Assembly (NCBI GenBank): GCA_902557215.1
Contig: CACDZM010000001.1
Location: forward strand, 62,001-126,000
DNA: 64,000 nucleotides
Direction: 5' to 3'
Source of the DNA: an uncultured Pelagibacteraceae bacterium
GTDB lineage: Bacteria; Pseudomonadota; Alphaproteobacteria; Pelagibacterales; Pelagibacteraceae
Position numbers and translations under genes: made by a program. Position 1 is the first letter of the stretch. Each line of letters opens with the position of its first letter. Below the pieces are notes generated by a model. It had not been told where the DNA came from and ran no database searches. It saw nothing but the letters and a program-made list of their open reading frames with translations. Of the stretch, positions 10,930 through 38,361 are shown piece by piece.

Positions 10930-11196
10930 ATGAATTCTGACATAGAACAATTAAAAAAAAAAATTATCTATAGATCAAATTATCGTGGTACAAAAGAAAT
11001 GGATAAATTACTAGGAGCATTTACGAATGCTTATATTAATCAATTAAATGAGAAGGATCTATTAGATTTACAAAAGCTACTAAGTTTTGAGGACGATGAT
11101 CTATTTAATTTTTATAAAGGATTGAATACAAATATAGAATTTGAGGAAAATAATGTTAATTCATTATTTAAAAAATTTAAATATGTGGTTGATTAA
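10930..11196 (+). CDS. sdhE: SdhE, FAD assembly factor for succinate dehydrogenase
   Basis: Small cytoplasmic protein (also called DUF339 or SDHAF2) that helps covalent flavinylation of SdhA. I chose the ATG at 10930, giving 88 residues starting MNSDIEQLKKK; an upstream start at 10891 would run into the recG leader and adds only a poor hydrophobic tail. The family RG motif appears in YRGTKEMDKLLGAF, followed by DLQKLLSFEDDDLFNFY. It stands divergent from recG, as in many relatives. Confidence 0.92.
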   Translation: MNSDIEQLKKKIIYRSNYRGTKEMDKLLGAFTNAYINQLNEKDLLDLQKLLSFEDDDLFNFYKGLNTNIEFEENNVNSLFKKFKYVVD

Positions 11197-11199
11197 GAA

Positions 11200-11289
11200 T
11201 GGCGGAGAGACTGGGATTCGAACCCAGGAAAGAGTTGCCCCTTTGCCGGTTTTCAAGACCGGTGCTTTCAACCACTCAGCCATCTCTCC
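11200..11289 (-). tRNA. tRNA-Ser (anticodon TGA)
   Basis: On the minus strand the acceptor GGAGAGA pairs with TCTCTCC, the anticodon stem CCGGT...ACCGG encloses TTGA with anticodon TGA, there is a long variable arm typical of tRNA-Ser, and the T arm is GGGTTCGAATCCC. CCA is encoded (TGG at 11200-11202 on the plus strand). It is convergent with sdhE, 3 bp away. Confidence 0.96.
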
Positions 11290-11376
11290 GTGAGCAAGGT
11301 TTTATTATTAAAAATATATAATTCAACCATAAAATAGTCTATTTACCTTATGTATTATTTAATTCTATAAAATTCT

Positions 11377-35807: not shown

Positions 35808-36635
35808 TTAAGGTCTTAAATCTGATTTTTGACCTTTAATTGATTTTAATAAACCATCAAACCTTATTTTGTACTTTGTTGTTAATATTTCGTTTTTAGT
35901 AATTGTATATAAGATTATTCTAAATAATATTCTTACTAATAAAGGTAAAAAAATTATTAATGATAATAATTTTCCATATTTTTTTTTGTGAAAATAAAAT
36001 TTTGACCAAATAAAATGCCATATAAGAATATTAGAAAAACTTTCACTTTCTAAATCGACAGATCTACCTTTAGTTGTAACTTTTATGTCATTAATTTGAT
36101 ATGAAAGATAACCTTTTTTTTTTGCTCTATAGCAATATTCGGTTTCTTCAAAATATAAAAAGAAATTTTCATCAAATTTTCCAATTTTAAGAAAAATATC
36201 TTTATCTATAAACATACAAGATCCATGAATAGAGTCAATTTTACCCAATTCTAAGTTCTCATTAATTTGTTTATGACTTTTTTGTTTCACATCTAAAAAT
36301 CTTGGCCCTAAGGCAGCAAAATTATTTTTTTTTGTCTTAGCAAAATCAAGAAAAATATTCAAATCTTCAAAATTAAATTCAAGATCGGGACTTATTTGTA
36401 AAAAATATTTAGTTTTAATTTTTTCTACTGCATAATTTAATGCTGAACTTACGCCGTTATTTTTTTTTAAATATACTGATATATGCTTATATTTTTCTTC
36501 AATATCTTTTTTGAGTTCATAATCTTGTGAATTATCTATTACTATTGTTTTTATAGTTGAAGGGATTTTCTTAATAAAATCATATATTATCTTTCCACTT
36601 TTATAAGTAATAATTACAATTGTTATTTCGTTCAT
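35808..36635 (-). CDS. Family 2 glycosyltransferase, rhamnosyltransferase-like
   Basis: GT-A fold enzyme: ITIVIITYKSG at the start, VIDNSQD, the donor-binding region QISPDLEF (where a DxD would lie), GSCMFIDKDIFLKIGKFDENFFLYFEETEYCYRAKKKGY, typical of rhamnosyl/galactosyl transferases. A hydrophobic segment near residues 220-245 may attach it to the membrane. It overlaps the recombinase gene upstream by 4 bp, an unusual operon. Acceptor unknown. Confidence 0.87.
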   Translation of the reverse strand: MNEITIVIITYKSGKIIYDFIKKIPSTIKTIVIDNSQDYELKKDIEEKYKHISVYLKKNNGVSSALNYAVEKIKTKYFLQISPDLEFNFEDLNIFLDFAKTKKNNFAALGPRFLDVKQKSHKQINENLELGKIDSIHGSCMFIDKDIFLKIGKFDENFFLYFEETEYCYRAKKKGYLSYQINDIKVTTKGRSVDLESESFSNILIWHFIWSKFYFHKKKYGKLLSLIIFLPLLVRILFRIILYTITKNEILTTKYKIRFDGLLKSIKGQKSDLRP

Positions 36636-37546
36636 ATTTTAATTTTATTTAAAGCATTATTTTTAAATAAATTTGCTTCTTGTATATATCTTCTTACCAT
36701 TTGAGTTGTTTTATGACCTGTCATTGCCATAATGCTTCTTTCATCTGCACCAATTTCAGCTGTTGATGTTGCAAATCCAGATCTTAAACTATGACCTGCG
36801 TATTTTGTTTTATCCAAACCGGCTAATAGAGCATATTTTTGAATTGTTAAAGCTACTGTTTTATCAGATATATTGAATATTTTACCGTTGTTAATTTTGG
36901 CATGTGTTATCCATTCTTTTAAAGATATAACGGGACAATAGATTTTATTTTCGAAGTAGGGGATTGCTTTAATCATTCCTATACCAGTCTGGTCTGTCTT
37001 TGACCTTCTTACCAAAATCTTTACTCCTTCATTCACGAAATCAATATCTTTATACTCAATTGACACTAATTCTGATCTTCTAAAGCCGCCTGCAAACCCA
37101 ATTAATAATAATGCTCGATTTTGATACTTTTTATACTCATTTTTACTTTGATCTATAACATTAATAATTAATTTTAAATCATTGATTAATAATGGTTTTT
37201 TAGATATTTGTTTAACTCCCATCTTTCTTTTTATTCCCATTAAATTTTCAGCAATAATTGGATGTTTTGTATCGATATAATGCCCTTTTAATCTATGAAT
37301 TATTTTTATTGAGGCTAATCTTCTTTTTAAAGTGCTAAATTTACTAAATACACTTAAGTGTGTAAGATATAATGCTATTATTTTTGGATCAGTTGGTAAT
37401 GAATTAAAACCATTCTTTTTACAAAACTCTGTAAAATCTTTAAAATCTGCTTGATAAGCTCTCAAAGTGTTGTGAGCTTTTGAATTTTTTAAATTTTTTA
37501 AAGTTTCTAATTCTAGGTTTTTTAGATCTGTAATTAAATCATTCAT
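36632..37546 (-). CDS. Tyrosine-type site-specific recombinase/integrase
   Basis: The 304-residue protein has an N-terminal core-binding helical domain (about 20-100, AHNTLRAYQADFKDF...) and a catalytic domain (about 115-300). The catalytic residues are in place: Arg156 in GGFRRSEL, Lys183 in RRSKTDQ, His252 and Arg255 in GHSLRSGF, His278 in TGHKT and the nucleophile Tyr287 in RRYIQ. It is not XerC/D by its N-terminus. A perfect 10-bp inverted repeat with a 7-bp spacer sits 5 bp upstream of its ATG. It overlaps a glycosyltransferase gene downstream by 4 bp. Its site and partner are unknown. Confidence 0.92.
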   Translation of the reverse strand: MNDLITDLKNLELETLKNLKNSKAHNTLRAYQADFKDFTEFCKKNGFNSLPTDPKIIALYLTHLSVFSKFSTLKRRLASIKIIHRLKGHYIDTKHPIIAENLMGIKRKMGVKQISKKPLLINDLKLIINVIDQSKNEYKKYQNRALLLIGFAGGFRRSELVSIEYKDIDFVNEGVKILVRRSKTDQTGIGMIKAIPYFENKIYCPVISLKEWITHAKINNGKIFNISDKTVALTIQKYALLAGLDKTKYAGHSLRSGFATSTAEIGADERSIMAMTGHKTTQMVRRYIQEANLFKNNALNKIKI

Positions 37547-37551
37547 ACAAT

Positions 37552-37578
37552 TTTCCGATAACCATTAATTATCGGAAA
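37552..37578. repeat. Perfect inverted repeat 10-7-10, candidate recombination site or operator
   Basis: Arms TTTCCGATAA (37552-37561) and TTATCGGAAA (37569-37578) are exact reverse complements separated by CCATTAA. Geometry resembles the core sites of tyrosine recombinases (dif 11-6-11, loxP 13-8-13 from general knowledge) and it lies between the recombinase start and a divergent small ORF. An operator for autoregulation is the main alternative; there is no T-run, so a terminator is unlikely. Confidence 0.7.
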
Positions 37579-37625
37579 TAATATATTAAGTGATTTTTAA
37601 TGTCAATAGTTTAAATTGTAAAATT

Positions 37626-37799
37626 ATGGGTTCGATTGATGGAGAAATTCCTGCAATTTGGTTTTTAATAAGCTCAATAGGATTTATTTTTTTGAGTATT
37701 ATTCAATATCGAAATACTGGTAAAAGCTTCAACACAATATTCTTATCTATTATGGCAATTATATTTTTAGCTAGTTACCTAATTTTGCTTAACAAATAG
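37626..37799 (+). CDS. Small membrane protein, function unknown
   Basis: From the ATG at 37626 the frame encodes 57 residues beginning MGSIDGEIPAIWFLISS, with two predicted membrane helices (about 9-27 and 37-55) joined by a short polar turn QYRNTGKSF. An upstream start at 37590 would add 12 residues but puts it very near the inverted repeat. No family recognised. It is divergent from the recombinase and precedes the structured RNA candidate. Confidence 0.55.
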   Translation: MGSIDGEIPAIWFLISSIGFIFLSIIQYRNTGKSFNTIFLSIMAIIFLASYLILLNK

Positions 37800-37865
37800 A
37801 AAGTTATCACCGTAATTCACAGATAAATATCAGAATTTAGAAAAATCAACTATTTAGTGATACCC

Positions 37866-38080
37866 TATTTAATTCTACTTTGTTAAAGTACTTGTGAATT
37901 AAGAGGCAACTCTTAACTGGCCAATTGGAGAAAAGCCGAGAGGTACAATTCCAGGGGGCAGAAAGCTTCACAAAGCATCGCTGAACATGTGGAGCGGGAG
38001 GCATGGCGGTAGCGCATCAACGACGTGCCAAAACAACTGTTCTTTGCACCTTTAAAAGTGCAAGGAAACAGGGGTTTTTT
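37866..38080 (+). ncRNA. Unidentified structured RNA candidate
   Basis: A gene-free stretch that is about half G+C over 37921-38040 (64 of 120 bases) inside DNA that is otherwise strikingly AT-rich, with consecutive hairpins: 37871-37900 (AATTC/GAATT around TACTTT-gtt-AAAGTA), 37901-37914 (AAGAG-GCAA-CTCTT, a GNRA tetraloop), 37917-37954 (CTGG+AATTG with CAATTCCAG), 38000-38029 (GGCATG/CGTGCC around GCG-GTAG-CGC), and 38037-38071 (CTGTT and TTGCAC with GTGCAA and AACAG) followed by GGGTTTTTT. I compared by memory with tmRNA, RNase P RNA, SRP RNA, 6S RNA and common riboswitches and matched none. It could be a stand-alone RNA or a leader of the MGMT gene. Strand is chosen from the trailing T-run. 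Confidence 0.6.
38037..38080 (+). terminator. Possible intrinsic terminator at the end of the RNA candidate
   Basis: Long hairpin with arms 38037-38049 and 38058-38071 (one bulged A), loop about 8 nt, then GGG and six T at 38075-38080. The T-run begins 3 bases after the stem, so termination could be partial; the MGMT ATG is 6 bases further. Confidence 0.4.
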
Positions 38081-38085
38081 AAAAA

Positions 38086-38361
38086 ATGATACTCAAAGGC
38101 ACCAAATTTCAAATAAAAGTCTGGAAATTTCTCAAAACAATACCAAAAGGTAAGGTTAAAACCTACAAACAAGTGGCTATTAGTATTAAAAACCCTAGAT
38201 CAGCTCGTGCTGTGGCTAATGCATGTGCTAAAAACCCATATGCTCCAAAAATACCTTGTCATAGAGTGATTAGATCAGATGGTACTCTTGGAGGCTATTC
38301 AGGCAAGGGTGGAATAAAACAAAAACTCAAATTACTTAAATCTGAAAAAGTTGCGATTTAG
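38086..38361 (+). CDS. MGMT-family methylated-DNA--protein-cysteine methyltransferase, single-domain form
   Basis: The 91-residue protein is only the C-terminal active-site domain of the O6-alkylguanine-DNA alkyltransferase family: GTKFQIKVWKFLKTIPKGKVKTYKQVA, the DNA-binding NPRSARAVANACAKNP, and the acceptor Cys in KIPCHRVIRSDGTLGGYSG. Because the motif is PCHR and not PWHR, alkyl acceptance is possible, unlike ATL proteins. The N-terminal domain of Ada/Ogt is missing and there is no sign of it upstream, where the RNA candidate lies. Confidence 0.9.
   Translation: MILKGTKFQIKVWKFLKTIPKGKVKTYKQVAISIKNPRSARAVANACAKNPYAPKIPCHRVIRSDGTLGGYSGKGGIKQKLKLLKSEKVAI

Follow-up and report, generated by a model that had tools for sequence, protein, structure and literature searches.

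The strongest GC peak in the 64,000-nucleotide stretch of uncultured Pelagibacteraceae DNA analysed here (the window) is near certain to belong to the catalogued RNA family IMES-2, and comparison with relatives indicates that it forms a stand-alone noncoding RNA gene. The predicted transcript of approximately 186 nt occupies positions 37895-38080 of the + strand, as delimited by a match to Rfam RF02035 and comparison of 213 loci. Our preferred reading, with a probability of roughly 0.55, is that IMES-2 is a free-standing, activator-driven noncoding RNA gene whose compactly folded product acts in trans via a protein. An extended -10 promoter would be switched on by a homodimeric activator bound at a dyad near -43; the product would fold into a compact unit via kissing loops, possibly also through GNRA contacts, and would act in trans, either as part of a ribonucleoprotein or through protein titration. 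SAR11 bacteria rank with the ocean's most abundant cells and have few regulators, making a conserved, separately controlled RNA in many of them worth understanding. The analysis provides an anatomy for a known orphan RNA, comprising a predicted start, a predicted activator site, a kissing contact and pairs of genomes that differ in having or lacking the gene at one and the same site.

Family membership and RNA structure

When compared with all 4227 Rfam families, the locus matched RF02035 (IMES-2) at 37892-38031; the score of 142.8 bits far exceeds the cut-off of 54.7, and the match covers model positions 1-141 (full length); none of the other families gave a significant match at this RNA. The initial annotation had described an unidentified RNA and named a significant Rfam hit as the outcome that would make it a known one; the RNA itself is an already known family rather than a new RNA. 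Neither ARAGORN nor Rfam detected a tmRNA at this locus (tRNA-like domain, tag open reading frame). The name IMES abbreviates 'identified in marine environmental sequences'. The IMES-2 family was reportedly described in 2009 with no function given, and the original IMES work is said to have found IMES-2 RNA at high abundance. No discussion of IMES-2 in bacteria was found in a literature search whose scope lay outside the original IMES papers. This RNA and RF02035 share the P1-P4 arrangement over the full length of the model, and the match ends before the terminator found at this locus. What is added here to RF02035 is the promoter, the terminator, the P3/P4 kissing loops (which may already be in the original description), the gene contexts and the distribution. 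The known SAR11 riboswitches and leaders (glycine, SAM-II/V, rpsB, ffh and pntA motifs) were found by the same logic, as GC-rich stretches in an AT-rich SAR11 genome, but they stand before a constant gene, which IMES-2 does not; IMES-2 is not named in the consulted part of that work (PMC2704228).

The compositional contrast is pronounced. At 37921-38040, 64 of 120 bases are G or C, exactly as first counted, compared with a window mean of 33.5 per 120 bases; this level is reached by 0.04% of 120-base windows, and a tRNA at 11179-11306 is the sole other stretch in the window with at least 60 G or C per 120. The + strand of 37866-38080 has a folding energy of -68.5 kcal/mol, against -51.7 +/- 4.1 kcal/mol for shuffled versions (z -4.1; 0 of 200 shuffles as low), whereas the - strand does not stand out (z -1.6). 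An open reading frame scan found none of at least 60 aa within the RNA, in agreement with the initial annotation, and the sequences of relatives vary by single-base insertions and deletions; together these observations indicate that the RNA is noncoding.

The gene comparison covered 213 loci (136 distinct cores); 44 distinct sequences chosen to differ were used for covariation analysis of 45 proposed pairs against 500 shuffles. Substitutions on both sides occur in 26 of the 45 base pairs, a number that 0 of 500 shuffles attained; standard pairing is kept in 92.4% of cells (83.2% when shuffled), and cells with two-sided change number 213 compared with 57 in shuffles. None of the 500 shuffles reaches any of five covariation measures, and sliding the partners against each other leaves a much lower signal. 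This comparison of relatives, proposed with the first description of the patch, supports the fold and upholds the view that the patch is a genuine structured RNA, contradicting a chance composition peak. The row of hairpins originally listed likewise stands as a structured RNA, except that the 5'-most hairpin (~37876-37890) lies in the -10 region of the promoter and outside the conserved RNA, which sets the extent of the RNA at ~37895-38080.

Four hairpins make up the conserved core. P1 (37899-37916, + strand) carries an invariant GCAA tetraloop, with covariation in three of seven pairs and 98.7% of cells paired; its inner part (37901-37914) is the GNRA hairpin AAGAG-GCAA-CTCTT noted at the outset. 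P2 (37917-37961, + strand) contains an internal loop and a GNRA tetraloop, with two-sided change in 9 of 15 pairs; the tetraloop is nearly always GAGA, and the single cases of GCAA and GCGA both fit GNRA. P3 (37965-37995, + strand) covaries in all eight pairs, and its loop (37978-37983) pairs with the loop (38010-38015) of P4 (38000-38029, + strand). The resulting kissing-loop pseudoknot (37978-38015, + strand), a contact absent from the nested model, consists of six pairs that read GCGCUA/UAGCGC in most sequences and UCGCUG/UAGCGC here. Pairing-preserving variants comprise GUACUA/UAGUAC, GCACUA/UAGUGC and UCGCUG/UAGCGA. Two strongly diverged copies from genus g2 (L032 and L033; 62-69 bits) retain a shifted form of the contact, GCACU with AGUGC, as well as the promoter dyad, and would be useful for widening the Rfam model. 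Both the fold and the P3/P4 kissing loops are shown by this comparison to be supported.

The structure bears directly on how the RNA might act. Action through a protein partner is ranked first because nearly all conserved bases belong to helices, to tetraloops or to the contact between the loops, with no open seed in view. IMES-2 could instead be a small RNA of the antisense type, perhaps dependent on Hfq, that pairs with mRNAs through the single-stranded segments between P2 and P3 or flanking P4. Its own promoter and U-tailed terminator would suit Hfq-type small RNAs; the reading is possible but doubtful. Most of the RNA, however, is engaged in covarying helices and mutually paired loops, and the bases that are conserved yet unpaired belong to tetraloops and A-rich internal loops. 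The fold is rigid and mostly paired, with invariant loops and no open seed, all of which speaks against simple antisense pairing. The presence of two tetraloops, conserved internal loops and a pseudoknot also recalls compact aptamers or ribozymes, but a free-acting metabolite-binding or catalytic RNA is quite unlikely given that there is no expression platform, no conserved downstream gene and no apparent conserved cleavage site.

6S RNA (RF00013) is close to IMES-2 in length and is likewise a small, structured RNA that stands alone. That IMES-2 is a diverged 6S RNA controlling RNA polymerase in SAR11 would fit the lack of any RF00013 match, at E up to 1, in its own genome or 12 other SAR11 genomes (13 searched in all: G000, G001, G003, G005, G007, G011, G013, G015, G020, G026, G038, G048 and G090), a search that does detect 6S in Caulobacter and E. 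coli. This identity is nevertheless highly improbable. 6S RNA is a rod with a central bubble, whereas IMES-2, by folds and covariation, comprises a series of hairpins with kissing loops and has no closing stem between its 5' and 3' ends; furthermore, half of the SAR11 genomes have no IMES-2, and those tested have no 6S either.

Transcription signals and gene context

Alignment of 186 distinct upstream regions into a logo delineates a promoter belonging to the RNA. An extended -10 element, TG-T-TAAAGT (37881-37889, + strand; consensus TGnTAWWNT), places the probable transcript start near 37896. Upstream lies a dyad, ATCAA-N7-GTGAT followed by AC (37845-37863, + strand), with the consensus ATCAM-N7-GTGATAC, in which the C, G, T, G, A and T are each conserved in 98% of regions; its centre falls near -43, the position of class II activators, and it is a predicted activator site. 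The conserved dyad is 17 bp long and keeps a spacing of 35-40 bases to the RNA across the 186 regions, while the neighbouring genes change. A regulon search of 21 genomes matched the dyad to no other promoter, leaving no regulon that would point to the regulator; a shared regulon was rejected, as the other dyad matches come without the -10 element and the RNA and fall mostly inside apparent coding regions.

Further upstream, a tandem DnaA-box-like element, TTATCACCG-TAATTCACA, occupies 37804-37821 (+ strand), and relatives have TTATCCACA or TTATCCCCA followed by TATTCACA. With at most one mismatch, TTATCCACA occurs in 72% of 173 upstream windows and 3% of control windows, and none of 300 permuted 9-mers does as well; in genera g5 and g6 it runs into the final codons of mnmA, where coding constraint may explain some of the conservation. 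Transcription of IMES-2 might be tied to DNA replication, with DnaA at the tandem boxes, ~75-115 bases upstream of the start, acting alongside the dedicated activator at the -43 dyad. This link is unlikely; if true, the RNA would signal replication status in a bacterium that has very few regulators. The boxes also raised the possibility of a replication origin, which was rejected: the locus lies near the GC-skew maximum of the window, a terminus mark, exact DnaA boxes are not clustered there, and relatives occur without the module. An RNA specific to the terminus was rejected too, the g2 RNA being hundreds of kilobases from the recombinase. Across ten complete or near-complete SAR11 genomes, exact TTATCCACA boxes are rarer in total than a reversed control and form no large cluster.

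The 3' end is a predicted intrinsic terminator (38037-38080, + strand), formed by a bulged hairpin (38037-38071) and a T-run (38075-38080), as had been recognized from the single sequence. Over 212 loci, the 3' 62 nt fold at a mean of -19.6 kcal/mol compared with -8.5 kcal/mol when shuffled, and at least four T follow the hairpin in 79% of loci. A generic scan for terminators and standard promoters reported neither the IMES-2 promoter nor the 3' hairpin, the latter probably missed on account of its bulged stem; both assignments accordingly derive from comparison.

The genes around the RNA differ between genera. In g1, IMES-2 precedes an MGMT/Ogt gene (38086-38361, + strand; PF01035, TIGR00589 ogt) that begins 5 bases past the T-run and is considered a neighbour only; this same-strand order is kept in most g1 loci, and the upstream genes vary. 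In g5 and g6, IMES-2 follows mnmA and faces an opposite-strand membrane-protein gene, while in g2 its upstream neighbour is a nuclease gene and the gene that it faces is again on the opposite strand. MGMT does not adjoin the RNA in these other genera and is far away where its position is comparable. What remains constant across genera is the unit of promoter, RNA and terminator, which identifies a stand-alone gene; from this comparative evidence, the IMES-2 gene is autonomous, with its own conserved promoter and terminator. A small membrane-protein-like open reading frame (37590-37799, + strand), conserved in many relatives and without a Pfam match, lies between the recombinase and MGMT.

The initial annotation had left open whether the RNA stands alone or serves as a leader of MGMT; the conserved promoter and terminator bear out the former, and the latter fails as a general role, given that the next gene in g2, g5 and g6 is convergent and unrelated. 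A cis-acting leader or attenuator, in which the terminator at 38037-38080 sets the transcription reaching MGMT, draws some support from the retained gene order in g1 and from the 5-base gap, which would place any promoter of MGMT itself inside the RNA. It is nonetheless very unlikely, in light of the opposite-strand neighbours, the distance of MGMT where compared, and close relatives without IMES-2, which have the same two genes but nothing of the module between them, the small open reading frame directly abutting MGMT. In g1, some read-through from the autonomous IMES-2 gene probably also feeds MGMT.

Distribution

IMES-2 is present in 139 of 297 Pelagibacterales genomes, representing 4 of 11 genera, all within the family Pelagibacteraceae, and occurs as a single copy in each positive genome. 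No copy was found outside this family in a class-wide alphaproteobacterial sample of 385 genomes. Among the titles seen in a scan of named genomes, all RNA-profile matches were Pelagibacteraceae or Pelagibacterales records; true matches came from Pelagibacteraceae only, in keeping with the marine (SAR11) origin of RF02035. Phage records, plasmid records and viral contigs yielded no IMES-2, and carriage as phage or plasmid cargo was rejected, five viral contigs fitting a short pattern but failing the RNA model. Diverged copies in the negative genomes were likewise rejected: a custom model returned only short, weak, chance-like matches, and an Rfam search of three negative-genome loci found no IMES-2.

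On a tree of the recombinase, the presence of IMES-2 requires approximately 10 changes, of which at least four are forced by supported branches. Comparison of genomes shows an accessory distribution with gain and loss, in which gene recombination in SAR11 precludes an exact count of events. Absence from approximately half of the genomes implies that the role of IMES-2 is dispensable.

The adjacent recombinase and palindrome

The XerD-like tyrosine recombinase at 36632-37546 (- strand) is closest to XerD by sequence and scores below the curated XerC and XerD cut-offs. No second tyrosine recombinase occurs in this genome or in most of the complete relatives that were tested. Directly upstream of the recombinase gene, beside its start codon, lies a palindrome, TTTCCGATAA-CCATTAA-TTATCGGAAA (37552-37578). 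The palindrome is present in 172 of 173 loci, and in one group its two arms have changed in concert. Recombinase and palindrome look like a single-recombinase Xer/dif system; Pelagibacter ubique has been stated to have no dif/Xer system (PMC2731167, 2009). This side finding may outweigh the IMES-2 result and merits a study of its own. The cumulative GC skew of the window peaks near the recombinase locus, and two complete genomes, examined as 20 kb pieces, show a switch in the sign of GC skew at this locus.
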